Below are positions 758-13,439 of a stretch of 64,000 bases of DNA, piece after piece. The DNA is from a virus. The stretch spans positions 1 to 64,000 of the IMG/VR virus record IMGVR_UViG_3300029267_002252; one strand, written 5' to 3'. A program made the translations under genes and the position numbers. The notes beneath the pieces were generated by a model. The model was not told where the DNA came from, made no database searches, and worked only from the letters and a program-made list of their open reading frames with translations. The stretch's first letter is position 1. The number at the start of each line of letters is the position of its first letter.

Positions 758-1105
758 ATGAGCGACCCGATTATCGAAGAGCTTCGCGTATTCAAAAGGA
801 CTATGCCTGATGGACGAGTTGACTTGATTACTATGTTTATGCGTGTTGACCCGAAGAATCCTGTGACCCGCTATGTTGGACACACTGGATTAGCCCGTAT
901 GACGGATACTCCGATGGGCCCGGCTGAAATGAGTATGCCGATTGATTTCGACATACCCGCCAGATTTATCGAGGAAGCGTTTGAGAAGTTTGATGAGTTA
1001 GCAGACGAAGCGCAGAAAGACTTGAAACATAAGTTGGATAATCGAATCATACTGCCCGGAGAAATGCCTCCTGGTGGGCCGCCATCTTCTCCGTTTCGAG
1101 GATAA
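758..1105 (+). CDS. hypothetical protein, 115 aa
   Basis: ATG start with GGGAGA five bases upstream, 15 bases after the glycosyltransferase stop. The protein is soluble, has no signal peptide or membrane segment, and mixes acidic and basic residues. Its C-terminus is Pro/Gly-rich (PGEMPPGGPPSSPF). I recognise no family. It is probably co-transcribed with its neighbours, as only four bases separate it from the next start. Confidence 0.6.
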   Translation: MSDPIIEELRVFKRTMPDGRVDLITMFMRVDPKNPVTRYVGHTGLARMTDTPMGPAEMSMPIDFDIPARFIEEAFEKFDELADEAQKDLKHKLDNRIILPGEMPPGGPPSSPFRG

Positions 1106-1108
1106 TTT

Positions 1109-1927
1109 ATGAATATTAACACTGCATTTGAGAAAATGGGGGCGCGCGTAAAAGTTGAGCGCGTTTCCGATGATGTGCGGTGGGTACGTCGTACGCGCAT
1201 GGACGGGAATGTTGCTATGGATGTTCGCCGTGACCGCAAAGGAGAGTTCTTTGAAATTCTTCTTCGTGATGGAGTCGGAACTCAGATTCTTGACGTAAAA
1301 CCCAAAGACCGCCATCTTCTTATAATGGTTCGTGACCCGGAGAATCCTAAAGCGCGTTTTCTGTGTGGACACGATGAACGCCACTGGTTTACCGCAGCTA
1401 TTCCTGAGACTGCGGGAGCTTCTAACGTAGCAGAAGCTAAAGAAGCTTTGAAACCTGCTGCACTTCGCGAAATAGAAAATAAGCGCGGAGTAAAACGTAA
1501 AAACCGTCAGAAGCGTCATCGTAAAGCTGCCGGAGGAACCATTCATCGTCAGGGGGAGTTTACTTTTGTTCCCATGCCTGATATGGCTGTGAAGGATTGG
1601 CTCGTTCAGAAAAAGGAGCCTTTAGCTCAGCGCGGGAATCCGCATGTCGCTGATTTTTTGTATCGTACGGGAGGAACTACTCGTTACTTCCATACGAATT
1701 TTCCAGAAGGGGTAGATGTTCACAAGTATAATAAACTCGTGAAAGAGCGCGACGAAAGAGCGCGCGGAAGATGGGACCAGCGTACTACTGGAATGCGTGC
1801 GTTTGTGAAAGGGAAAATCCGTCACATCGAACACGCTACTGTAGACCTGGGGAATATTTGGCACGAAGTAATTGTGAATACGGAAGCTCTTTCTATTTCT
1901 CGTTCTAACGTTGTTTTTATGGATTGA
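1109..1927 (+). CDS. hypothetical basic protein, 272 aa
   Basis: Starts at ATG 1109, three bases after the previous stop, with a weak GAGGA upstream. The protein is rich in Arg and Lys throughout, most strikingly at residues 128-148 (KRGVKRKNRQKRHRK region), which suggests nucleic-acid or other polyanion binding. No membrane segment or known catalytic motif is visible. The C-terminal third (THFNL-like stretches, HIEHATVDLGNIW) looks globular. Function unknown; nucleic-acid binding is an inference from composition only. Confidence 0.6.
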   Translation: MNINTAFEKMGARVKVERVSDDVRWVRRTRMDGNVAMDVRRDRKGEFFEILLRDGVGTQILDVKPKDRHLLIMVRDPENPKARFLCGHDERHWFTAAIPETAGASNVAEAKEALKPAALREIENKRGVKRKNRQKRHRKAAGGTIHRQGEFTFVPMPDMAVKDWLVQKKEPLAQRGNPHVADFLYRTGGTTRYFHTNFPEGVDVHKYNKLVKERDERARGRWDQRTTGMRAFVKGKIRHIEHATVDLGNIWHEVIVNTEALSISRSNVVFMD

Positions 1928-1930
1928 CCT

Positions 1931-2275
1931 ATGGAAGGACCTGGACCTCGGAATAGACCTGAACTGGAAGAATATATTGTTTGGAGCAAACAGAATATTC
2001 GCATTAAAACCGAGCCGGGATTCTTCAAAGGATATCTTGACTGGGTGGAGGCGCACATGGAAGAACTTAAAGACCATGTGCGTCCCACCGGTTGCACTGA
2101 CGCAGTTATTATAATACTTGCTTATGAGTATTATAAGGAGCATCAGATTGACCTCGAAAATAAAGCAAACATGCTGCCTTGTATTGTGCAGAGTATATTG
2201 ATAGACCATATTGAAAAATGTAAGTTACGGTGCTTGATGTATCGCACTTGTTTTGAAGGAGAATTACCATGTTGA
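1931..2275 (+). CDS. hypothetical protein, 114 aa
   Basis: ATG 1931 follows the previous stop by three bases; its last codons overlap the start of the nicotinamidase gene (ATGTTGA), implying translational coupling. The protein is mildly acidic and mostly helical by composition, with four Cys in the C-terminal half (CTD, PCIV, KCK, RTCF). No family recognised. Its coupling to pncA makes it worth considering with the NAD genes, but nothing in its sequence shows an enzymatic role. Confidence 0.55.
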   Translation: MEGPGPRNRPELEEYIVWSKQNIRIKTEPGFFKGYLDWVEAHMEELKDHVRPTGCTDAVIIILAYEYYKEHQIDLENKANMLPCIVQSILIDHIEKCKLRCLMYRTCFEGELPC

Positions 2276-2847
2276 TTTTTGTAGACGTGGATACTCAGAG
2301 AGATTTTATGAATGAGGGAGGAGCACTATATGTTCCGAATGCCGAATCTATAAAACCAGCTCTTAAGCGACTGAATGATTATGCTGTCGAGAAAGGCATT
2401 AAGGTTGTGAAGACAATGGACGTTCATTTTGGAACTCCTGCGTATAAAGACGTTGAGGGTGAGCTTGAGGTCAATGGCGGACCGTTTCCTGAGCATTGCA
2501 TGTGCGGAACAGCGGGAGCGAAGTCTATTCAGGAAACTAAGAATAACGACGCAGATATATTCCGCAAGAATACGTACGACGTGTTTGCTGAGAAGGGCGG
2601 CAACGATGAGATTGTCAAATATCTTAAGGATAAGAAAGTCTCTTCAGCCGTTGTTTACGGAGTAGCGACCGATTACTGCGTGAAATCTGCTGTACTCGGA
2701 CTCCTGGAACGTGGAATCGAAGTCACTGTAGTTCGCGATGCTATTGCCGGAGTGGATGAAAAGAGTTCTGACGAAGCTCTTCAGGAGATGGAAGAAAAAG
2801 GAGCCGTAATCGCAGAGCTGGAAGCAGTCACCAAAGGAGAAGAGTAA
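2269..2847 (+). CDS. pncA: nicotinamidase (isochorismatase-like cysteine hydrolase)
   Basis: Deamidates nicotinamide to nicotinate and ammonia, the first step of deamidating NAD salvage; cytosolic. The 192 residues match the family length. The catalytic triad is visible: Asp8 in the D-x-Q-x-D-F motif (DTQRDF), Lys100 in FRKNTYD, and the nucleophile Cys137 in GVATDYCV, which also shows the cis-peptide V-A-T-D signature. Probable metal ligands are Asp51 and His53 (DVHF) and His76 (PEHC), followed by the CGTAGA segment typical of nicotinamidases. Start ATG 2269 has GAAGGAG seven bases upstream and overlaps the end of the preceding gene. The stop overlaps the start of nadE (taATG), so the two are probably translated together. 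A general isochorismatase-family amidase is possible, but the motif set and the nadE/pncB neighbours favour nicotinamidase. Confidence 0.88.
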   Translation: MLIFVDVDTQRDFMNEGGALYVPNAESIKPALKRLNDYAVEKGIKVVKTMDVHFGTPAYKDVEGELEVNGGPFPEHCMCGTAGAKSIQETKNNDADIFRKNTYDVFAEKGGNDEIVKYLKDKKVSSAVVYGVATDYCVKSAVLGLLERGIEVTVVRDAIAGVDEKSSDEALQEMEEKGAVIAELEAVTKGEE

Positions 2848-3584
2848 TGCAATGTGAGAAAGTAGCCGATACCATTCAGCGATGGATGAGGGAGCGAGTA
2901 ACAAAAGCAGGAGCACGGGGAGTCGTAGTCGGAGTGAGTGGTGGAATAGACTCTGCTGTTACTGCCGTCCTATGTAAGCGCGAGTTTGACGAAAATGTGA
3001 CCGGGCTGATAATGCCGTGCGAGTCTTTGGATGATGATGGGATTGACGCAGCTACGCTGTGCAGTACGTTTGCCATCTATTCCGAAGTAGTGGAACTCGG
3101 AGATACGTATAATAGTATGCTCAAGCTGTTCCCGGAAACGTTTGATTGTAAGCTTGCCAGAGCAAATCTGAAATCGCGTCTTCGTATGTGTGCCCTGTAT
3201 TACGTTGCAAACACTTGCAATTATCTTGTAGCCGGGACGAGCAATCTGACTGAGATAGAACTCGGGTATTATACGAAATATGGGGATGGGGGAGTTGACA
3301 TCGAACCTATTGGAAGTCTATATAAGACTCATGTTCGAAAGTTTGCTGAGCATCTCGGAGTTCCCGAGCGAATCCTCACAAAAGCACCTTCAGCCGGATT
3401 ATGGGAAGGGCAGACGGATGAGAAGGAAATCGGAATGACGTATACTCAGATGGATAGGGCGCTAGCAGGAATTGATTGCCAGGATGGGACATTATCGAAG
3501 CGCATGTTGCAGAGCCAACATAAGCGTCAGATGCCTCCGTGTTGTTTTGTTGATGAGAAACTTTTAGGAAGGGTGGACGAGTAA
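2847..3584 (+). CDS. nadE: NAD(+) synthetase, ammonia-dependent type
   Basis: Catalyses ATP-dependent amidation of nicotinate adenine dinucleotide to NAD, the last step of the Preiss-Handler pathway. At 245 residues it lacks a glutaminase domain, so it should use free ammonia, which the neighbouring nicotinamidase also releases. The N-type ATP pyrophosphatase loop SGGIDS lies at residues 31-36. The NAD-synthetase signature GTSNLTEIELGYYTKYGDGG lies at about 130-150, and the later K-x-PSAGLW-x-GQTDE segment closes the substrate pocket in the family. Start ATG overlaps the pncA stop; the RBS AAGGAG lies inside the end of pncA. The last Asp-Glu codons run straight into the next gene (taATG). All motif positions look intact, so I expect an active enzyme. 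Confidence 0.93.
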   Translation: MQCEKVADTIQRWMRERVTKAGARGVVVGVSGGIDSAVTAVLCKREFDENVTGLIMPCESLDDDGIDAATLCSTFAIYSEVVELGDTYNSMLKLFPETFDCKLARANLKSRLRMCALYYVANTCNYLVAGTSNLTEIELGYYTKYGDGGVDIEPIGSLYKTHVRKFAEHLGVPERILTKAPSAGLWEGQTDEKEIGMTYTQMDRALAGIDCQDGTLSKRMLQSQHKRQMPPCCFVDEKLLGRVDE

Positions 3585-3979
3585 TGGAGAAAGTAGTACT
3601 GCCCGAGAGACTTCCTGATGAGACTACTCTCGGAGAGAAGTATAAACCTGCTATGTCGATAATGGACCAAGCTACTGCTGACGAGTATTTCGAAGTGCTT
3701 GTCGAACATACTATGCGAATAGCTGGAAAATCCAGAGTAGAAGCTGAGAGCATAGAGCGGAAAAATCTTGGATACGTAGCGGGATATTATGGCCATGAAG
3801 TACGTCTTCGTGTGGAGAAATTATTTATGTGCCAGCATCCGATGCTAGGGCGTGCATCTGACGGAAGACCTACTCCGGAAGAAGCGTTTGATGCCGGAGT
3901 ACGTTGGGCGGAGCGCCAGAAGAGCGGGAACAAAGTGGAAGCTAACGGGGAATGGTTTAACGACGGAAAAGGAATGTAG
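3584..3979 (+). CDS. hypothetical protein coupled to nadE, 131 aa
   Basis: Start overlaps the nadE stop (taATG). The protein is soluble, with a predicted helical centre (ATADEYFEVLVEHTMRIA, SRVEAESIERKNLGYVAGYYG) and a short conserved-looking HPMLGRASDGRPTPEEAFDAG stretch near the C-terminus. I do not recognise an enzyme family. In particular there is no nucleotidyltransferase motif (G-x-F-x-P-x-H-x-G-H) that would make it the missing NadD. Tight coupling to nadE suggests joint expression rather than proving a joint function. Confidence 0.6.
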   Translation: MEKVVLPERLPDETTLGEKYKPAMSIMDQATADEYFEVLVEHTMRIAGKSRVEAESIERKNLGYVAGYYGHEVRLRVEKLFMCQHPMLGRASDGRPTPEEAFDAGVRWAERQKSGNKVEANGEWFNDGKGM

Positions 3980-3980
3980 T

Positions 3981-4259
3981 ATGGATATCATTATTCATGC
4001 CAAGCCGGAGGTAGTGGAACATAAGACGGCTTCTGATATTTATGAGTGTTGGTGGGACGTGTCGGGAACGCCCCGCCAGTTATTTGAGTATGATAAAGTT
4101 ATGTTTGCGTATAAAGGGAGAGTACATGCTGAAGGGGAAGTTATAAGCATCGAGCCTGGACGTATTGTAATGGAGCCGTTAAAGAAAGTAGATTATAAAG
4201 CTCCGACTAAGCCTCCCACTCGTGGATTTAAGTATGTGCGGGAGAATGGTGATGAGTGA
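3981..4259 (+). CDS. hypothetical small beta protein, 92 aa (possible PUA/ASCH-like fold)
   Basis: ATG 3981 directly follows the previous stop with AAAGGAA upstream; the open frame extends further 5' but that part overlaps the preceding gene and is a shadow. The middle (DKVMFAYKGRVHAEGEVISI) has the alternating pattern of a small beta barrel, resembling the region of PUA/EVE/ASCH-type domains in which a strand pair reads D-x-V-x-F-x-Y-x-G-x-x-x-G-x-A-x-V. This similarity is by eye and weak. Overlaps the next gene by the last codons (gATGAgtga). Confidence 0.5.
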   Translation: MDIIIHAKPEVVEHKTASDIYECWWDVSGTPRQLFEYDKVMFAYKGRVHAEGEVISIEPGRIVMEPLKKVDYKAPTKPPTRGFKYVRENGDE

Positions 4260-4527
4260 GGACCGGACTGCTGGAGAAAGCAGTGAAAATTACGATAAGC
4301 TTTTTGATGATTTTGAGGAAATCATGGCAAAGTCGTATCATGCGATTACTGATGAGGATGAGCTTCGGGATTTTTTCGAATCGATACGCGGCTCAGCCGT
4401 AGCAGCGATTCAGATGCTCGATGACCGTAGTCATATGGATGATGAGGATGATGAGCTGAATCCGGATGATTACGACCCGACTGAAAATCCTCTTGACCCT
4501 AATGATATTATTGATGAAGATTATTAA
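4252..4527 (+). CDS. hypothetical very acidic protein, 91 aa
   Basis: Start chosen at ATG 4252 because GGGAG lies seven bases upstream and the start overlaps the previous stop; an upstream ATG at 4246 is too close to that RBS. The protein is strongly acidic, and its C-terminal third is almost all Asp/Glu/Asn/Pro (MDDEDDELNPDDYDP). Small acidic phage proteins are sometimes DNA mimics or inhibitors of host nucleases and polymerases; here that is only a possibility from composition. No family recognised. Confidence 0.55.
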   Translation: MSEDRTAGESSENYDKLFDDFEEIMAKSYHAITDEDELRDFFESIRGSAVAAIQMLDDRSHMDDEDDELNPDDYDPTENPLDPNDIIDEDY

Positions 4528-4715
4528 TGTTTATCTGCGAGAAGTGTTGCATTGAGAACGGAGTAGATACGTTCTGGTTTATAATGCCGAACGTATCAGT
4601 TGGGCTGTGCGAGTCGTGCAGGAAGACGAAGCCGTGCATAGATTATCACGGTGATTTTCATAGAGCCGAAGAACCGAAAAAGAAGTGGTTCGATAATGAG
4701 AGGAGCGTAGACTAG
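4527..4715 (+). CDS. small Cys-rich (zinc-finger-like) protein, 62 aa
   Basis: ATG overlaps the previous stop (taATG). Two Cys pairs, CEKC at residues 4-7 and CESC at 28-31, are spaced as in treble-clef or zinc-ribbon mini-domains; an extra Cys and His follow (CIDYHGDFH). The C-terminus is charged. Probable zinc-binding protein of unknown role, perhaps nucleic-acid or protein binding. Confidence 0.5.
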   Translation: MFICEKCCIENGVDTFWFIMPNVSVGLCESCRKTKPCIDYHGDFHRAEEPKKKWFDNERSVD

Positions 4716-5329
4716 TGGCTAGAGGAAATACGACGATACCGTCACTGTATACGGCAGAAGAGGTGTGTGCAAAATTGCCAAAAGGATTAAAAGATTTTAT
4801 TAGCCCTTCTCGACTAGTAGAGTTAGCGGAACAAGGTTTTGCGCCATGTGTTAAGGTTGACATTCATCCAGAGCCCGTGTTTGAGTTGAGGGCGATTCGA
4901 GATTGGATAAAAGTTAACATGATTCACCATTACAAAGGTTCTCCGTTACCGCCTAATTGTATACAGGTTATTACGAATAATCCAAGAAGCTTAGTGCCGA
5001 CTGATTTACCTTATGGGATACAGCCGTTATTTGAGTGTTTGAAAGAATATCCGTTAGGGTATTTTCCTCCGTGCGTTTATTTTCTTGTGCGCGATAAGTT
5101 AATAGTGTATGTTGGTCAGACTACGTCGCTGCCTACGCGTATAGAGAGGCATCGTGAAGATAAGGATTTTAATTATGTATTTTATATGCATGTCCCGAAA
5201 ACTAGACTAGACGCAGTGGAATCTGCTTTTATAAAATATTTTAAGCCAGAATATAACGACCCGCGAAGCTACGCGAAAGAGCCTGATATGGGAGTTATTA
5301 ATGAATTTTTGAGTGTAGGTAGTGAGTAA
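4715..5329 (+). CDS. GIY-YIG nuclease domain protein with N-terminal HTH-like region
   Basis: GTG start overlapping the previous stop (taGTG), with AGGAG upstream. The C-terminal half holds a GIY-YIG core: VYFL at residues 121-124 and YVGQT at 132-136 stand for the two tripeptides, Arg142 and His146 follow at the catalytic positions, and Glu169 (DAVESAFIKYF) is the metal-binding Glu, ending with the usual F-x-P-x-Y-N. The N-terminal 65 residues (YTAEEVCAKL ... FELRAIRDWI) read like an excisionase/MerR-type helix-turn-helix, so it probably cleaves DNA at chosen sites. It could be a free-standing homing endonuclease, a DNA-repair nuclease or a host-DNA degrading enzyme; it sits between genes rather than inside one. 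Confidence 0.72.
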   Translation: MARGNTTIPSLYTAEEVCAKLPKGLKDFISPSRLVELAEQGFAPCVKVDIHPEPVFELRAIRDWIKVNMIHHYKGSPLPPNCIQVITNNPRSLVPTDLPYGIQPLFECLKEYPLGYFPPCVYFLVRDKLIVYVGQTTSLPTRIERHREDKDFNYVFYMHVPKTRLDAVESAFIKYFKPEYNDPRSYAKEPDMGVINEFLSVGSE

Positions 5330-5727
5330 TGGATAACAGAGTATTTAATGTCAACGGGACCGGAGACGAACTTCTACTCCAAACGTTGAAGCTCGCGTTT
5401 GCTCAGGAGGGGCGGAACACGACTGCTAATGCGTGGAGGGAAACTAAGAAGCATGGACTCATTTTATGCTGGACTATTCCGGATTCAAGTCCGGAGAATT
5501 ATAACCAGTTCCCGTCAGAGCTTACCGCAGAGGAAGTGTTTCCCGCAGTTAAGAAGTATCTTGAAAAAGCCGAGGATATCGAGATGAAGGATTGGGACGC
5601 GAATGCTGACCATGACGGAAGCAACGAACTCGGATGGAGAGTTTATTGCGAGGACTGGGGGCATGTTGATGACGATTTTTATGCTATCGTTGCTATAAAG
5701 CCCGCCTATATGTGGTACGGGAAATAA
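5329..5727 (+). CDS. hypothetical protein, 132 aa
   Basis: ATG overlaps the stop of the GIY-YIG gene. The protein is acidic with many Trp and Tyr (ENELGWRVYCEDWGHVDDDFYAI; NAWRETKKHGLILCW). It shows an alpha/beta mix with no transmembrane segment or catalytic signature that I recognise. Confidence 0.55.
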   Translation: MDNRVFNVNGTGDELLLQTLKLAFAQEGRNTTANAWRETKKHGLILCWTIPDSSPENYNQFPSELTAEEVFPAVKKYLEKAEDIEMKDWDANADHDGSNELGWRVYCEDWGHVDDDFYAIVAIKPAYMWYGK

Positions 5728-5728
5728 G

Positions 5729-6100
5729 ATGGGAAGTTTTGCCTCATGGAAGTTGCGGAATGCGCGACGTTCTGCGAAGTGCCGCGTCCTCAAGCTTGTC
5801 GAGATATTGTTGAATGACGATGAGCGTATGCAGCAGTTGACTGAGATGTGCTTCACTGCTTTGGAATGTATCGAGGACCCGATATGCGGGAACTGCGGGA
5901 AGCACAAAAGCGAACATCATTTTGAAAACGAGATATTTTGTTTTACAGATACGACAGGAGATATATTTACTGACGAGCCACACGATTATCGTCTGATTGA
6001 TTTTATAGAACACTTTTATCCGGAACAGCATGCTCAGTACATCAAAGAGTGGAAAAGGATGCACGGACATTTAGGAGAAGAAGATGCCAGTGATACGTAG
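5729..6100 (+). CDS. hypothetical protein with Cys/His metal-binding knuckle, 123 aa
   Basis: ATG 5729 follows the previous stop by one base. Central segment ICGNCGKHKSEHHFEN carries C-x2-C plus three His, suggesting a small zinc site. The N-terminus is basic and helical, the C-terminus acidic and aromatic. Overlaps the pncB start by 17 bases, so it is probably translationally coupled to pncB. Function unknown. Confidence 0.52.
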   Translation: MGSFASWKLRNARRSAKCRVLKLVEILLNDDERMQQLTEMCFTALECIEDPICGNCGKHKSEHHFENEIFCFTDTTGDIFTDEPHDYRLIDFIEHFYPEQHAQYIKEWKRMHGHLGEEDASDT

Positions 6101-7262
6101 TTTACTAGATACCGATTTATATAAACTCACAATGATGCAGTTTGCTTTGCATCAGTGCCCTGACGTATACGTGAAGTATGCGTTTAAGTGCCGGACTGAG
6201 GGAGTGGATTTTTCTCCTATTAAAGCCCGGATACAGGACGAGATAAATTACATGAATCGTCTGAGCTTCAAGGAAGATGAGTTGATGTATCTCCGTGACC
6301 TGAGATTTATGAAGCGCGATTTTATTGATTTCCTCAGAACGTTCAAGCTTCATTCAAGATATGTACACATCAGCGATTCTGATTCGGAAGGACTCAGCAT
6401 TATTGTCGAAGGGCCGTGGGTGCAGACTATTTTGTATGAGATTTATATTCTACGTACAGTTAATGCGTTATATTTTGACAACCTTTGTTCTTCTAAAGAC
6501 CGCAACGAGTTATTTAAGGAGGGGGAGAAGAAGCTGTCAGCCAGTCTATCGAACATACAGACGATGAAGGGAGTCAGTTTTGCTGATTTCGGAACGCGAC
6601 GCGCATTCTCTCCGGAATGGCATGCGCGCGTTATAAAGTTGCTGACTCAGCCTGAGATATTCCCCGGATTTATTGGGACGAGTAACGTCCTATTTGCAAA
6701 GGAGTACGGACTTAAGCCTATCGGAACGATGGCGCATGAAGTATTCCAAGTATGCCAAGCATTGACGAAGCCGGAATGGAGCCAGCGGTACGCGCTCCAG
6801 ACGTGGGCTGACGAGTATCGTGGCGACCTGGGGATTGCTTTGTCGGACACCCTAGGATTGCAGAAATTCCTCAAAGACTTCGACATGTATTTTGCAAAGC
6901 TGTTCGATGGAGTTCGTCAGGATTCCGGGAGCCCAACTGACTGGGTAGAGAAAGTCATCCGTCATTACGAAGATATGGGAATCGACCCCACAACGAAGAG
7001 CGCTGTATTCAGTGATGGATTGGATTTCAAGAATGTTGCCAAGATTCATACCTATGTCCGGGGACGTATAAAAGATGCTTATGGAGTTGGGACTCATTTG
7101 ACAAACAACCTCGGGCCAGAACCGATTCAGATTGTAATGAAAGTTATTGAAGCCGGCAGAGACCCCGAGAATCTTCAGCCTGTAGCAAAGCTGTCCGATT
7201 CTACGGGGAAGGAGATGTGTCGGGATAAGGATTATGTGGACTATTTGAAGAAAGTGATATGA
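6084..7262 (+). CDS. pncB: nicotinate phosphoribosyltransferase
   Basis: Joins nicotinate and PRPP to make nicotinate mononucleotide, the committed step of the Preiss-Handler route, fed by the nicotinamidase encoded 3.2 kb upstream. The 392 residues match PncB length. Visible family blocks are: N-terminal LLDTDLYKLTMMQFAL; FGTRRAFSPEWH; GTSNVLFAKEYG; GTMAHEV with the His that is phosphorylated in ATP-coupled members; LSDTLG; and the phosphoribosyl loop FDGVRQDSGSP, where most homologues have DSGDP. The C-terminal LSDSTGKEMC resembles the family's KLSD segment. ATG 6084 has AGGAGAAG upstream. The stop TGA overlaps the ATG of the next small gene. No truncation is seen. No NadD (nicotinate mononucleotide adenylyltransferase) is visible in the window, so that step would need the host enzyme or a gene elsewhere. 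Confidence 0.92.
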   Translation: MPVIRSLLDTDLYKLTMMQFALHQCPDVYVKYAFKCRTEGVDFSPIKARIQDEINYMNRLSFKEDELMYLRDLRFMKRDFIDFLRTFKLHSRYVHISDSDSEGLSIIVEGPWVQTILYEIYILRTVNALYFDNLCSSKDRNELFKEGEKKLSASLSNIQTMKGVSFADFGTRRAFSPEWHARVIKLLTQPEIFPGFIGTSNVLFAKEYGLKPIGTMAHEVFQVCQALTKPEWSQRYALQTWADEYRGDLGIALSDTLGLQKFLKDFDMYFAKLFDGVRQDSGSPTDWVEKVIRHYEDMGIDPTTKSAVFSDGLDFKNVAKIHTYVRGRIKDAYGVGTHLTNNLGPEPIQIVMKVIEAGRDPENLQPVAKLSDSTGKEMCRDKDYVDYLKKVI

Positions 7263-7605: not shown

Positions 7606-8028
7606 ATGCCTATAACGAAAGAGGAGTTTATTGAGAAAGTTGGTCGGGAACCTACTGAAGATGAATTATCACGAGTTAATTGTGAGATTGTCGGAGTACC
7701 TGGGCATGACCATTGTGGGTGGTGTGAGGAGCACGATAAGCCTCGGATAGTATGTAAATGCATTGCCGGAGATAATATCTACATGCATTCAAAATGCTGC
7801 GGCGCTCATTGGGAGCTTGTAAAGCATAACAATATAATCGGATTGTATTGCGCTAAGTGCTTTAAGTCGATAGGGGATGAGTTCAAAGTTATCATAGTTC
7901 CCAAGAAGCCGAAAGTGCCTCAAGCCCCGTCTCAGCACGCAGCGCCTCCGAAGGATATCAAGGTGGACGAACCTCCGCAGGACAAAAGTATTCCGGAGAA
8001 GGAATCGCAAGATGAAGCCGATTCTTGA
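7606..8028 (+). CDS. hypothetical zinc-binding protein, 140 aa
   Basis: ATG 7606 with AGGAGAAA upstream. The middle holds many Cys/His (HDHCGWCEEHDKPRIVCKC, KCCGAHWEL, YCAKC), enough for one or two zinc sites of the zinc-ribbon kind. The C-terminal 40 residues are Pro/Lys/Glu-rich and probably disordered. The last 17 bases overlap the NADAR gene. Family unknown. Confidence 0.55.
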   Translation: MPITKEEFIEKVGREPTEDELSRVNCEIVGVPGHDHCGWCEEHDKPRIVCKCIAGDNIYMHSKCCGAHWELVKHNNIIGLYCAKCFKSIGDEFKVIIVPKKPKVPQAPSQHAAPPKDIKVDEPPQDKSIPEKESQDEADS

Positions 8029-8563
8029 ATTCAAAGGAAAGTACTTTTTCCTGTCAAACTTTTACGAGATGGAGTTTGAGATGGACGGAGAGCTGCTTAA
8101 GTCCGGGGAACATGCATACCAGCGTGAGAAGACGTTGGACGCCGAGCGTCGCCAAGATATCGTAGACGCACCATCACCAGGGTCCGCGAAAAAGCGTGGG
8201 AGGAGAGTTATTCTTCGTGATGACTGGGAATGCATAAAAATACCGGTAATGGCTAAGGTTTTGCATTCGAAATTCAGTTATCCGGAAATGGAGCGCCGGC
8301 TGCTTTCTACCGGGGATTCGCTGCTTGTTGAGGGGAATACCTGGGGAGATGCTTTTTGGGGGTTTGACCTTATTCGAGGGTTCGGTCAGAACATGTTAGG
8401 ACGCCTTCTGATGCAGCTCCGTAAATCGAGACGTGATACTAGCCTTAAAGCGCGGTATGACCGCATAGCCGATTCTGAGTGGTTTAAGGAGCATTATAGC
8501 GATGTTTCGCTCGGAGACGGGATACCTGTCGATTATGGATATAGTGATATTTTTGATGATTGA
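8012..8563 (+). CDS. NADAR (YbiA-like, DUF1768) domain protein
   Basis: NADAR domains bind NAD/ADP-ribose-type ligands; characterised members include N-glycosidases of riboflavin intermediates (YbiA) and enzymes that remove ADP-ribose from DNA guanine, serving as antitoxins to DarT1. The 183 residues show the family blocks in order: FFLSNFYEMEFEMDG (12-26), S-x-EHAYQREK (31-40) with the conserved Glu-His-x-Tyr-Gln, APSPGSAKKRGR (53-64), DDWECIKIPVM (70-80), LLSTGDSLLVEGNTWGDAFWG (97-117) and GFGQNMLGRLLMQLR (123-137). Because it lies near NAD salvage genes, I infer a role in handling ADP-ribosylated substrates or NAD breakdown products during infection; which of the known activities it has cannot be read. 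Its stop is followed at once by a parS palindrome. Confidence 0.88.
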   Translation: MKPILEFKGKYFFLSNFYEMEFEMDGELLKSGEHAYQREKTLDAERRQDIVDAPSPGSAKKRGRRVILRDDWECIKIPVMAKVLHSKFSYPEMERRLLSTGDSLLVEGNTWGDAFWGFDLIRGFGQNMLGRLLMQLRKSRRDTSLKARYDRIADSEWFKEHYSDVSLGDGIPVDYGYSDIFDD

Positions 8564-8579
8564 TGTTTCACGTGAAACA
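8564..8579. promoter_or_regulatory. exact consensus parS (ParB-binding) palindrome
   Basis: TGTTTCACGTGAAACA, a perfect 16-bp palindrome (18 bp if the flanking A/T pair is counted), is identical to the canonical bacterial chromosomal parS site bound by ParB/Spo0J. It occupies the leader between the NADAR stop and the AGGAGG of the next gene, 28 bases before that gene's ATG. A ParB-like gene starts at 9209. The sequence match is direct; that it works as parS is inference. Confidence 0.85.
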
Positions 8580-8591
8580 TAGGAGGTTCAG

Positions 8592-9089
8592 ATGAACGAG
8601 AGAGATGTTATAAAAGAGACTCTTAAGCATATTTCAAGCGTATGCTGTAAGATTTTGAAGTTCTGTAATCGCATGCATATGAGAGCGTATCATCATGATG
8701 ATAGTAAGCTGGAAGAGCCGGAGTTTGAGACGTTTCTCAAATATACTCCAAAACTACGCGGTATGACGTATGACGTCAATCCTGACAGTGAGTATCAGAA
8801 GTGCTTAAAGGAGATGAAACCAGCCCTGGACCATCATTATGCGAATAATGCGCACCATCCTGAGCACCATGAGAAGGGGATTGAGGACATGACCCTTCTG
8901 GATGTTACCGAGATGCTTTGCGACTGGTGGGCTGCGACAGAGCGCCATGCTGATGGGGATATAATGACGAGTATCGAAAAGAATACCGAGCGTTTCGGAT
9001 TATCTCCGCAGCTTGCTAAGATATTAGCGAATACGATTATTGAACTCAAGAATGACCTCGTTACGCATAAACCGGAAGACGTCGCGTAA
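8592..9089 (+). CDS. DUF5662-like (HD-domain-like) protein, 165 aa
   Basis: ATG with a perfect AGGAGG five bases upstream. The His/Asp pattern HHDDSKL (34-40), DHHYANNAHHPEHH (80-93) and DVTEMLCDWWAATERH (104-119) matches phage-common DUF5662 proteins, which look like small HD-type metal-dependent phosphohydrolases. Substrate unknown; nucleotide or signalling-nucleotide hydrolysis would be the natural guess, stated only as inference. The leader contains the parS palindrome. It is the last gene before the regulatory gap at 9090-9208. Confidence 0.65.
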   Translation: MNERDVIKETLKHISSVCCKILKFCNRMHMRAYHHDDSKLEEPEFETFLKYTPKLRGMTYDVNPDSEYQKCLKEMKPALDHHYANNAHHPEHHEKGIEDMTLLDVTEMLCDWWAATERHADGDIMTSIEKNTERFGLSPQLAKILANTIIELKNDLVTHKPEDVA

Positions 9090-9208
9090 ATTTATGCGGT
9101 CGTTAAAATCGGTATGCATAAAATAGTATTTTTTATTTTTAGGTATGCATTCAATATGTGACAAAAATGTCACCAATGGCGGTGCAATCGATTGCAAAAG
9201 GAGGCAAT
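9090..9208 (+). promoter_or_regulatory. leader of ParB-like gene: direct repeats and palindromes
   Basis: The 119-base gap holds a direct repeat GGTATGCAT at 9111-9119 and 9142-9150 (31-base period, so the two sites face the same side of the helix), an inverted repeat GTGACA-AAAA-TGTCAC at 9158-9173, a perfect 14-bp palindrome at 9183-9196, and AAGGAGG at 9198-9204. This arrangement is typical of an operator region; no clear -35/-10 pair is seen, although the AT-rich stretch 9117-9140 could hold one. Confidence 0.5.
9183..9196. promoter_or_regulatory. palindrome TGCAATCGATTGCA upstream of ParB-like gene
   Basis: Perfect 14-bp palindrome ending two bases before the Shine-Dalgarno sequence and starting 26 bases before the start codon. 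A near-identical site lies at 49760 and a related one at 44839, each 29 bases before a start codon. Confidence 0.5.
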
Positions 9209-9973
9209 ATGGCAGACGAAGTTAAGAATAACGTAGAAGATGTGGTCAATATCCCGATTGAGAAATTAATCAAAGCTGACTGGAATCCGCAAGTACAGTC
9301 AACTGAGACGTTTAACGAACTGGTAGCTGAGATTGAATCTGACGGATTTGATGAGCCTCTTGTCGTTATCAAGCATCCGGATAAAGAGGACCGGTTTCTG
9401 ATTGTCGCCGGGAATCACCGGTACGACGCGGGGAAAGTCATCGGAATGACCGAATTACCCTGTATTATCAAGGATTGGGACGAAGAAGAAGCCAAAATCA
9501 AAGCCGTACGTCGCAACATCATCCACGGAGACCTGGACGAAAGACGCTTCAGCACCCTTGTAAACAGCATTAAACGCCGTGAGAAGATAACTGAGGACGA
9601 AGTCGCCAAGAAAATGGGATTCGCCAGTAAAGGTGAGTTTGATAAGCGGTATCGCAAGGAAGAGATAGAAAAGCGCGCAAAAGAGCGTAAGGAAGCTTAT
9701 TCTCATGACGATATCCCCAAAGAACTACAGATGGTCGATAATGTTACGGTGGCAGTCAACGATATCTTCAGTAATCATGAGGGAGATAGCATTGACCGGA
9801 GTTATCTGTTCTTCATGTACAAGAAGAAGATGCATCTCATCGTGACGTGCGATGACGCACTCGCGAAGACTGTATCAAAAACCGTGGGACACATCAATGA
9901 TAACTCTATGGACGCGGCTGAGTTTTTCAAGGCAGTGCTTGAAAAAGCAGTGAAGGAGTCGTCTAAAAAGTGA
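9209..9973 (+). CDS. ParB/Srx-like domain protein
   Basis: Start set at ATG 9209 because AAGGAGG precedes it by four bases; the longer frame from 9158 runs through the palindromes. The 254 residues begin with a ParB N-terminal domain: IPIEKLIKADWNPQ, LVAEIESDGFDEPLVVI, and AGNHRYDAGKVIGM, the counterpart of the G-E-R-R-x-R-A CTP/DNA-binding box of ParB. Residues about 125-155 (KITEDEVAKKMGFASKGEFDKRY) sit where ParB has its helix-turn-helix. The C-terminal 100 residues are not the usual ParB dimer domain and are unrecognised. It may be a DNA-binding partition or regulatory protein acting at the nearby parS, or a ParB-type nuclease/regulator of the packaging genes. The exact parS 630 bp upstream favours the first, but this is inference. 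Confidence 0.75.
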   Translation: MADEVKNNVEDVVNIPIEKLIKADWNPQVQSTETFNELVAEIESDGFDEPLVVIKHPDKEDRFLIVAGNHRYDAGKVIGMTELPCIIKDWDEEEAKIKAVRRNIIHGDLDERRFSTLVNSIKRREKITEDEVAKKMGFASKGEFDKRYRKEEIEKRAKERKEAYSHDDIPKELQMVDNVTVAVNDIFSNHEGDSIDRSYLFFMYKKKMHLIVTCDDALAKTVSKTVGHINDNSMDAAEFFKAVLEKAVKESSKK

Positions 9974-9983
9974 CGGTTTCCGG

Positions 9984-10010
9984 AAAAATGAAAAAAATTT
10001 CATTTTTTTC
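9984..10010 (+). terminator. AT-rich hairpin with T-run after ParB-like gene
   Basis: AAAAATGAAA (9984-9993), loop AAAA, TTTCATTTTT (9998-10007) with further T residues. The stem contains few G/C pairs, so it is a weak intrinsic terminator at best; the same A/T tract could act as an UP element for the promoter that starts one base later. Confidence 0.4.
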
Positions 10011-10039
10011 TTGACAAAATTTAGTCTATATGCTATACT
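10011..10039 (+). promoter_or_regulatory. sigma70-type promoter of the packaging/structural operon
   Basis: -35 TTGACA (10011-10016), 17-base spacer, extended -10 TGc-TATACT (10031-10039). This is a near-perfect housekeeping promoter preceded by an A/T tract. Expected start near 10046, 45 bases before the terminase small subunit GTG. Confidence 0.8.
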
Positions 10040-10090: not shown

Positions 10091-10642
10091 GTGGCAGAAA
10101 AAGACAAAGATGGTGCTTGGTTTGATGAAAAAGCCGACGCCGTAATGTCCCCCGAGCAGAAAAAAATTCAGTTACGCAGAGAAACAGTCTTCGAATTGTA
10201 TTATATGCGTAACATGTCACAAAGAGCAATCGCGAACGTCGTGACCTGCCACTACAACACAGTGGGTAGTGATTTGAAATACATTCGCGAGCACATGGCT
10301 AAGAAGCATGGACATGGTGATGTTGACGTTCAAATTTTTGAAACGTGTGAACGAATGCAAGCAACCATGTCTGAACTATGGATGAATTATACTGCTGCTA
10401 AGAAGGATATTGATAAGCAGCGTTACTTAGAATTATTTCATAAAGTTCAGAAGGACCTCGCCGCATTCAAGTTGGATGTGGGGTTGATGCCACGAGCAGC
10501 TTCCCGCTCGAAGATTGAAGTTATAGCGAAGGAAGTCCAAGAGATGTCCGAGGCTGAACTGCTATCTCAAAGAGATAGATTGGTTCAACGTATAACGAGC
10601 GGGGAGTTTGACGAGGGTGCCGGACAAAACTTCAACAATTGA
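10091..10642 (+). CDS. terminase small subunit (probable)
   Basis: GTG start, GGGAGGA at 10076-10082. The 183 residues carry an N-terminal helix-turn-helix (ETVFELYYMRNMSQRAIANVV, then HYNTVGSDLKYIRE, about residues 31-62) followed by a long helical region and a C-terminal EVIAKEVQEMSEAELLSQRD segment, the layout of small terminase subunits, which recognise packaging sites on the concatemer and load the large subunit. It lies directly upstream of, and overlaps, the large terminase gene. The assignment rests on architecture and position. Confidence 0.7.
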   Translation: MAEKDKDGAWFDEKADAVMSPEQKKIQLRRETVFELYYMRNMSQRAIANVVTCHYNTVGSDLKYIREHMAKKHGHGDVDVQIFETCERMQATMSELWMNYTAAKKDIDKQRYLELFHKVQKDLAAFKLDVGLMPRAASRSKIEVIAKEVQEMSEAELLSQRDRLVQRITSGEFDEGAGQNFNN

Positions 10643-13439
10643 GTCCCTTCATGGGTCAGCGGAAAAAAGTGATGCGCTAGAAGCTCTGCGTGTCATGGAG
10701 AGCCGTCTTCTTGAAATAAAGAAAGTGCGCTCACCCCTGGAGCATGGATTTGCCGACTTGCTCGGCGAAGAACTCGTTAACAAACGACACACCGAGTCAG
10801 ATAAAGAACACGCACTTAGACAACAGCAAGCCATCTATGATTTTGTATCGTCAACACTTTATTTAGTCAAAGATGGAAAACGCCAATACATTAAACTAGT
10901 CCCTGAAGCACGTCGTCTTATCGCTGACATTTTTTACGAACGTGTTAATAAAGCTATCCTCTGGAAATCTCGCGGCGGAGGAGGAAGCACATCAGCCGCA
11001 GTACTCATCTTTTTGATGATGGTTTACAAGTCAAAAGAGTTCACCAACCTTGCTGGTTCTGGTAGTCAGGCTCGTTCAATTTATGAAAAAGTTGTCGAGT
11101 TTTGTAGTTGTAACCCCCAGGTTTATCAGTATCTTATAGATGGTGACCCTTTGATATCCAGAACGCATTTTTATAATGGAGCAAAGCTCCATTGTATCAA
11201 TGCGACCGATAAGCAGGTCCGGAGTCGTCACGATTCCGGTCTTATTATTGATGAGGGGTGTTTACTCCCAGGTTCGAAAGTAATTACAGAGCGTGGGATT
11301 ATTAACGTGGAAGATGTTGTTCCAGGAGATTGTGTAGTCAATCAAGATGGAATTATAACTTCTGTTAAGAATGTATGGAGCAAGGATTGGGATAATCGAG
11401 TAGTAAATATATCACTTAATGGATGGTCTACAGGATTAGAGTTGACTCATGACCACAGAGTAAAGATAATTCGAGGACTCGATAAAGGAAATCCAAAAAG
11501 AAAAGATTCTGTTAACGAGTCTAGTGCTGAGTGGGTTCACGCCGAAGATATAAGTGATAGAGATTATGTCCTCATTCCAAAAATAAAGACGAGCGATATA
11601 GATGATTGTATACTCGCTGATACATACGACGGAGGGAAGTGGCTTGGATATTGGTTGGGGGACGGCTGGACCGGTAAACAGCGTTCAAGAGGAATTTATG
11701 TCGTATTCAATTCTAAAGATAAGCGTAATATAGATGAATATGTATCAATAAGTAAAGATTTGTTTGGGCGTGAGGTTTGCTTTGATAATTCGTCAGTTGA
11801 GAATAGAATTAATACTGATACTGCCTTATTTACTCATAAGGAATTAGCAGATTTTCTCGATACTACTTTCGGAACAAAGTCTACAGAAAAAGGAATGCCT
11901 TTTGACTTTATAGCTGGGCAATCTAAAGATTTTGTCCGTGGAGTTATAAGCGGACTTATAGCTTCCGATGGAACCGTATGGGAAGGGAAAGCCTCTTCAG
12001 GAGGAGTTTGCAAAAGAGCCTCGATACAGACCTCATCAGAAGCCCTGGCAGCTTCTATATTTACATGTCTGGCTAAACTTGGAGTAGCTGCTTCTTATAG
12101 AGAGCGTCCGGCGAAAATATCTAATATACGTGGTAAAGAGTACTGTACTAAAGAATCATGGGTTATTGATATAAATGGAAAGGCAATGAGCTTATTTACA
12201 GATACCGATGATTCTGATAGAAAGCAGAAGGCTTTTAATTCATGGGTGGAGATTGATAATTATATTGCTGTCCCTGTTAAAAGCGTAGAGTCTAGGCATT
12301 ATTCCGGAGAAGTGTGGGATATAGAAGTCAAAGACGGTGAATCATTTATGATGATGAATGCTGTTGTGCATAACTGTCAGGAAGACTTGAAAGCCGGCGA
12401 AGTGATGAAAACAGCTCTCCAGAACGCACTTACTCAGCCGGAACATCTTATCCTCATACTCAGTACGTTTCATCATCCTGAAGGATTTTTCCAGGAGTAT
12501 TGGGACGACGCAGAGACTCATGGATTTACTAGATATAAATGGTCTGTGTACGACACGATGGTCAAGTGTGAACTTGATATCGACTGCGCCGACTGTTATT
12601 TGTCTGAGGTAGTGAATGAACACGATGAGCGCGGACGCGTAATCGGAACGACCGTAAAAGGATGCAACGGAACTGCGCGGAAAGCAGAAGGTTACCAGTC
12701 GTTTGAAGCTGTATGTGATATTAAAAAAGTAAATGAGGGTTCGAGCGTTTATACAGTCGAGTTTGAATGCGAGCGCCCGAAATTTTACGGAAGCATTTAT
12801 GACATTGAAGCTTTAGCGGAATCGGAGTGGGAAGATATTACATGGTATGAAGAGATTGAGAAATCAGTAGGACTGGACTGGGGTTATGTAGGACAGACGG
12901 CAATATGCATGACTGTTCGAAGTGAGATAGGTGTCGGAGTTCTCGAGACAGCATGGTTTCATGAGCAAAAAATCGGGGAGATTATCGGATACCTGAATAA
13001 ACTTAGAGAAGAGTACGGTAACTTTGTAGTGTTTGCCGACTCATCGGACCAGTTCAGTAATCGCGAGCTGCATGAAGAAGGGTTCAAAGTAATTCCTGTT
13101 GTTTTTAAGAAATGGAAAGAGTTCGGAATACAAAACGTATCGAAGTTCCTTACTACCGGACGTCTTCAATTTCTTAAAGACGGAGAAGGTAATGACCAGT
13201 TACTTTCTCAGTTGAGGAGATACCGTGCTGACGGAAACGGTAAGCCGATAAAAAAGGATGACCACGGACCTGATGCTCTGATGTGTGCTATGCTTAACTG
13301 GAGATATTTTGAAATGTTTGCTGGCTCTCCGAATCTGAGGAAGATGCATCCGGAGCAGTACCAGGATAAGGACGGCTCGATTGATGGAGAGCAGAAAAGA
13401 AGCAAAATCGACGCCAATCAGCAAGTAATCTTAATTTGA
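10617..13439 (+). CDS. terL: terminase large subunit, interrupted in frame by an intein
   Basis: The packaging motor: ATPase plus RNase H-like nuclease that cuts concatemers and drives DNA into proheads. The precursor is 940 aa; removing the 372-aa intein leaves about 568 aa, normal for TerL. The ATPase Walker A region reads KSRGGGGST (coded at 10965-10991), with the Lys early as in deviant terminase P-loops, and Walker B is LIIDE (11241-11255), where the intein is inserted. The nuclease domain shows GLDWG (near 12870), FADSS (near 13034) and DDHGPDALM (near 13257), the acidic triad. Start uncertain: GTG 10617 has GGGGAG ten bases upstream, while TTG 10608 is too close to it. Both overlap the small subunit gene. 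Confidence 0.93.
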   Translation: MPDKTSTIESLHGSAEKSDALEALRVMESRLLEIKKVRSPLEHGFADLLGEELVNKRHTESDKEHALRQQQAIYDFVSSTLYLVKDGKRQYIKLVPEARRLIADIFYERVNKAILWKSRGGGGSTSAAVLIFLMMVYKSKEFTNLAGSGSQARSIYEKVVEFCSCNPQVYQYLIDGDPLISRTHFYNGAKLHCINATDKQVRSRHDSGLIIDEGCLLPGSKVITERGIINVEDVVPGDCVVNQDGIITSVKNVWSKDWDNRVVNISLNGWSTGLELTHDHRVKIIRGLDKGNPKRKDSVNESSAEWVHAEDISDRDYVLIPKIKTSDIDDCILADTYDGGKWLGYWLGDGWTGKQRSRGIYVVFNSKDKRNIDEYVSISKDLFGREVCFDNSSVENRINTDTALFTHKELADFLDTTFGTKSTEKGMPFDFIAGQSKDFVRGVISGLIASDGTVWEGKASSGGVCKRASIQTSSEALAASIFTCLAKLGVAASYRERPAKISNIRGKEYCTKESWVIDINGKAMSLFTDTDDSDRKQKAFNSWVEIDNYIAVPVKSVESRHYSGEVWDIEVKDGESFMMMNAVVHNCQEDLKAGEVMKTALQNALTQPEHLILILSTFHHPEGFFQEYWDDAETHGFTRYKWSVYDTMVKCELDIDCADCYLSEVVNEHDERGRVIGTTVKGCNGTARKAEGYQSFEAVCDIKKVNEGSSVYTVEFECERPKFYGSIYDIEALAESEWEDITWYEEIEKSVGLDWGYVGQTAICMTVRSEIGVGVLETAWFHEQKIGEIIGYLNKLREEYGNFVVFADSSDQFSNRELHEEGFKVIPVVFKKWKEFGIQNVSKFLTTGRLQFLKDGEGNDQLLSQLRRYRADGNGKPIKKDDHGPDALMCAMLNWRYFEMFAGSPNLRKMHPEQYQDKDGSIDGEQKRSKIDANQQVILI
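11259..12374 (+). mobile_element. intein with LAGLIDADG homing endonuclease inside terL
   Basis: Translates to 372 residues running from Cys1 (CLLPGSKVITERGIINVEDV, block A) to the C-terminal His-Asn, with Cys as the +1 extein residue (VVHN|C). Block B has the T-x-x-H motif (LELTHDHRV). Two LAGLIDADG motifs are present with their acidic residues (LGYWLGDGW near 11643 and SGLIASDGTV near 11950), so splicing and homing both look intact. It sits right after Walker B (LIIDEG|CQED), a conserved site typical of intein invasion. Codon use is richer in ATA and AGA than the flanking exteins, consistent with horizontal entry. Confidence 0.93.

Follow-up and report, generated by a model that had tools for sequence, protein, structure and literature searches.

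For bacterial chromosomal parS, the consensus TGTTTCACGTGAAACA was taken as used in PMC10197239. Phage parABS cassettes of the RedRock type and of P1 encode both parA and parB and carry their own, different parS repeats (PMC7157519). Phage phi29 has host-type parS without a ParB of its own, and in this phage the host segregation protein acts on phage DNA, according to PMC9437464; the same paper cites Meijer 2005 for the reported entrapment of the phi29 genome in the spore via host Spo0J. Four parS sites with one mismatch each were counted in phi29 (0.0002 expected). In the mobile element SGI1, which has parS without parAB and uses a resident ParB, parS mimics bind the ParB of the IncC plasmid, stabilise SGI1 and act against the helper (PMC10954446).

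The DNA analysed here (the window: 64,000 nucleotides, positions 1 to 64,000 of IMG/VR record IMGVR_UViG_3300029267_002252) belongs to a virus record of 101,531 bp, and the whole window was found at 100% identity inside a longer record of the same virus (183,648 bp). At positions 8564-8579 the window contains TGTTTCACGTGAAACA, identical to the chromosomal consensus at 16/16 positions. A preliminary description of this DNA had reported the exact match, which was confirmed in the sequence; the perfect palindrome is actually 18 bp long (ATGTTTCACGTGAAACAT, 8563-8580, unstranded), with the consensus as its core, and is proposed as a putative loading site for host ParB. The site lies between two genes of the + strand. 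Upstream is a NADAR (DUF1768) domain gene (8012-8563; PF08719, E=6e-21), and the last base of its stop codon TGA (8561-8563) is also the first A of the palindrome. Downstream, a Shine-Dalgarno (SD) sequence read from the letters (AGGAGG, 8581-8586, + strand) abuts the 3' end of the palindrome and serves a DUF5662-family gene (8592-9089, 165 aa; PF18907, E=1.6e-35). Of the 28 bp that separate the NADAR stop from the DUF5662 ATG (8592), the palindrome thus occupies the greater part, and its earlier placement in the leader of the DUF5662 gene was borne out, with SD and ATG following directly. Further copies, a search for which had been suggested, were looked for in the whole phage genome and none was found: parS is present once in the 101,531-bp record and once in the 183,648-bp record, where every other match differs at 4 or more positions.

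Compared with chromosomal parS, the window site has the same 16 bases and, in addition, the A..T flanks that are frequent in viral copies, but it stands in a phage without parA or canonical parB, in single copy and not near a known replication origin; GC skew was monotonic along the 183-kb record, with no minimum near parS, so that no origin is indicated there. With the RedRock-type and P1 cassettes the window phage shares a parS on the phage genome, although no parA was detected in it. Like phi29, it has a host-type parS without its own ParB, but the window virus is a 183-kb tailed phage with one exact site, and phi29 a podophage of 19 kb that infects a spore former and carries several. Both SGI1 and the window virus have parS without a cognate parB gene, but the system targeted by SGI1 belongs to a plasmid, and SGI1 carries two copies and the Sci protein, whereas the window site would target a chromosomal system. 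The layout of Spiroplasma phage 4 is identical to that of the window (stop codon, ATGTTTCACGTGAAACAT, SD, ATG), but that phage is a 4.4-kb single-stranded DNA microvirus.

Other features of the virus were recorded during the survey. A set of NAD-salvage genes lies next to the NADAR gene (2269-3584 and 6084-7262): from their translations, 2269-2847 is isochorismatase/nicotinamidase-like and 2847-3584 NAD synthetase-like, and the nicotinate phosphoribosyltransferase (NAPRT) of the set was identified by Pfam. The large terminase subunit is encoded by an ORF of 943 aa (10608-13439) with an apparent intein (CLLPGSKVITERG ... VVHNC). Divergent relatives were sought in viral contigs with the ParB-like, DUF5662 and baseplate proteins, and all contigs recovered were identical ones of this virus; blastn of 8012-9973 against the phage collection gave no match, and tblastn of 18 window proteins against the collected loci returned one identical contig and otherwise only weak ParB_N matches.

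The expectation for one given 16-mer in 64 kb is 64000/4^16 = 1.5e-5, in agreement with the order of 1 in 100,000 given in the preliminary description. This figure ignores the post-hoc choice among many famous motifs, and parS was therefore compared with two control palindromes of the same dinucleotide make-up, TTGTTCACGTGAACAA and TTTGTCACGTGACAAA. In IMG/VR viral contigs, parS was found in at least 120 stretches, against 5 for TTGTTCACGTGAACAA and 11 for TTTGTCACGTGACAAA; viral contigs may contain host DNA, and isolate genomes gave the same picture. A total of ~2,200 viral stretches with parS was extrapolated (rough 95% range 960-6,700) from the pattern parS-N(0-4)-AGGAG, which was present in 5/120 of the matches listed and had a full count of 91, presuming that the first 120 matches listed were a fair sample. 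This SD-proximal arrangement was mildly above chance among those matches and does not amount to a general rule. In annotated phage genomes, a query of 30 bases containing the 18-mer matched 357 records with parS or a near copy, against 4 for the control query; isolate records are redundant, with many near-identical phages, so that 357 is no tally of independent events.

Viral sites tend to lie outside genes. Among the matches listed, 45/107 lay in ORFs of at least 120 aa, against 81% of random positions, and a preference for A on the 5' side and T on the 3' side of the core was observed; the window site, intergenic and with A..T flanks, resembles the other viral sites in both respects. Near-copies with 1-2 mismatches were found 14 times within 1 kb of exact viral sites, where ~0.06 were expected. 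A pure chance match would not be without precedent, since an event of 1.5e-5 per window is sometimes expected when very many windows are scanned and the control palindromes themselves were present 5-11 times in the viral collection; but the chance share of viral parS is at most ~4-9% from the count of at least 120, and <1% by extrapolation, and the window site is intergenic and extended to 18 bp. We therefore regard chance as very unlikely and the parS of the window as a real, non-random site.

Among the isolates listed as matches were the virulent Listeria phages A511 and P100, Lactobacillus Harbinvirus, Gordonia Woesvirus and Orchidvirus, phages of Microbacterium, Arthrobacter, Stenotrophomonas and Roseobacter, microviruses, and Spiroplasma phage 4. 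In alignments of the Gordonia and Lactobacillus sites, the core was constant and the flanks varied; these sites were picked by their core, and the constancy is no independent proof of selection. In the Gordonia phages Woes and PatrickStar, the parS cores lie inside perfect palindromes of ~30 bp, whose arms vary between sites yet remain complementary. Several microvirus records (PQ006097, PQ006178, OQ686938 and others) have multiple parS matches each, at up to 12 strand-counted places. In the Listeria phages P100 and LP-083-2, parS is found beside gp159 and adjoins a DUF1768 (NADAR) gene; the window parS is also NADAR-adjacent, possibly by coincidence.

The isolates also bear on which protein would be used. 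Escherichia coli is without a chromosomal ParABS system. Escherichia was not among the ten commonest names, which leaves at most 9 of the 357 matching records for it, and the phage collection holds at least 538 Escherichia records; few Escherichia phages with parS is what capture of host ParB predicts. On the other side, some phages of ParB-bearing hosts were not prominent among the matching records. Canonical ParB (TIGR00180, curated cut-off) was detected in 0/100 of the parS-bearing viral records tested, five of which gave weak matches.

A phage-encoded reader of the site was considered as well. As the preliminary description had noted, a ParB-like gene begins 630 bp downstream of parS, with its ATG at 9209 (9209-9973, + strand); its product (254 aa; PF02195, E=1.6e-11) is a non-canonical ParB_N-domain protein and the sole ParB_N protein detected in the virus. 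Were it the cognate binder, the phage would have its own partition or regulatory system, with the site as centromere or operator. The proximity of the gene, the ParB_N fold and a helix-turn-helix predicted at residues 129-147 (low-confidence single-sequence model, pLDDT 43) speak for this possibility. However, the protein aligned with Noc/Spo0J only as far as the start of the recognition helix, and the canonical C-terminal dimer domain was not aligned. The residues of Caulobacter ParB that contact parS are listed as Q162, G170, K171, S172, R173 and N178 (PMC7383237); the corresponding residues of the phage protein, read from an alignment to Spo0J and Desulfoluna ParB (position N178 by ungapped extension), are E, G, F, A, S and D, so that five of the six are changed and G170 alone is retained. 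Its CTPase motifs are GNHR and RNIIH, against GERR and ENIQR (ENxxR) in Desulfoluna ParB. With contact residues and CTPase motifs altered, the protein is unlikely to read parS, and it was rejected as the reader on these grounds. No ParA-type ATPase was detected (AAA_31 gave no hit across the 183-kb record), and the ParB-like gene has a different palindrome in its own leader. A phage partition or regulatory system centred on the 9209-9973 protein is accordingly rated as highly doubtful. The earlier suggestion that the site nucleates spreading of this protein is disfavoured, given the single retained contact glycine and the want of a canonical ParB in 100/100 parS-bearing records.

The palindrome in question, TGCAATCGATTGCA (9183-9196, unstranded), lies directly 5' of the SD of the ParB-like gene and is a copy of the dispersed motif TTGCAAGTGATTGCAA (TGCA-N6-TGCA), of which 34 copies were counted in 183 kb against ~3 expected (uniform-base estimate). 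Other copies in the window are at 3206, 23288, 37011, 44839, 49760, 54447 and 57857; the spacing is strictly 6, and several copies stand immediately 5' of SD sequences. TTGCAAGTGATTGCAA may be a stoperator-like candidate site of some phage protein, and a phage-encoded DNA-binding regulator would more plausibly bind TGCAATCGATTGCA than parS.

The position of parS in a leader raises a further explanation, namely that the palindrome is an mRNA leader hairpin, or the operator of another protein, and that its likeness to parS is coincidental. The palindrome immediately precedes an SD, as does the palindrome of the ParB-like gene, and the RNA could pair as AUGUUUC-ACGU-GAAACAU. Folding of the leader was nevertheless no better than that of shuffled sequences (z = -0.32), and the excess across the collection is one of the exact parS letters, not of palindromes of the same composition; this coincidence is considered improbable. 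The RNA hairpin as such was rejected, its stability being not unusual. The + strand from 7895 to 10011 yielded no sigma-70-like promoter, and the DUF5662 gene is therefore probably transcribed by read-through from upstream. The near-identical strong promoters of the 183-kb record, of the type CTTGAC-N10-TATATGATATAATA, have a core present in up to ~19 copies. Regulation of DUF5662 by binding at the site, as put forward in the preliminary description, thus found no support in the form of a classical operator: parS at a promoter was rejected, with no consensus promoter nearby and no unusual structure in the leader RNA. A roadblock or spreading effect on DUF5662 is possible.

The reading that we favour, and hold to be likely, is that the phage-borne chromosomal-type parS recruits the ParB of the host. 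It is favoured because the 18-bp palindrome is intergenic, occurs once per virus, is accompanied by no ParA or canonical ParB and by no tyrosine integrase (none was detected in the virus), and belongs to a class of sites in excess in viral DNA that has no cognate ParB. The wide occurrence of viral parS suggests that it is probably a hook for host ParB and not for the neighbouring phage ParB-like protein. Among the options raised in the preliminary description, capture of host ParB is the best supported, on the viral excess and on the 0/100 records with canonical ParB. The presence of only one parS in the phage was counted against it.

Proteins of the phage were also compared with those of cellular genomes and other phages. 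Among the genomes reached, the NAPRT was closest to Desulfobacterota (Desulfonema, Desulfoluna; 48-52%), which is no proof of host, and the DUF5662 protein was closest to proteins of Bacillus and Lysinibacillus phages, which is likewise no proof. The genomes with the nearest NAPRT relatives (n=7: six Desulfobacterota and one Clostridia) all have canonical ParB (7/7), and exact parS was found in 6/7, at 1-2 sites in 1.8-6.5 Mb.

Recruitment of host ParB would proceed as follows. Host ParB-CTP clamps would load at the phage parS and slide onto the neighbouring phage DNA, and the phage genome, infecting or replicating, would be handled as an origin region by the ParA/SMC machinery of the host. 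Phage DNA might in this way be tethered or positioned, and it might be retained, or passed to a daughter cell or spore, chiefly under delayed lysis (compare phi29 and Spo0J). Any effects on transcription of the NADAR and DUF5662 genes would be incidental or an additional use of the site.

The same binding could instead make the site a decoy, with replicated phage parS copies titrating host ParB and disturbing chromosome segregation or origin control. Bacterial chromosomes carry from one to 20 parS sites (PMC10197239), and few were present in the genomes searched here (1-2 exact sites in 6/7), so that ~100 phage copies could exceed their number. A titration-like route is also how SGI1 destabilises its helper plasmid (PMC10954446). 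With one site per genome, though, a decoy brings no gain before replication and is a weak sponge until then, and the sequence offers nothing to tell a decoy from capture. We rate the decoy as unlikely.

Beyond the window, capture of the host centromere may be a general phage strategy, in which unrelated tailed phages and microviruses repeatedly gained exact parS without parA or parB; we consider the arguments on this evenly balanced. Host ParB would then load on phage DNA and place or retain it like an extra chromosome origin, and the window phage would be one of ~2,000 contigs, a generalisation for which our confidence is likewise divided. The kind of interaction is already known from phi29 and SGI1, and its breadth across phages may be the new part. 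The open-licence literature returned no paper joining parS, phage and "host ParB", and of the open-licence papers containing the 16-mer and "phage", none, judging by titles and passages, describes parS in a virulent phage.

If this reading is true, host chromosome segregation would be a target common to many phages through one 16-bp sequence, virulent biocontrol phages such as Listeria P100 included. Phages bearing parS should then infect ParB-bearing hosts, and the site would give a clue to host range from sequence. The persistence of phages, in carrier states, in spores or through unequal inheritance, would be linked to ParABS.
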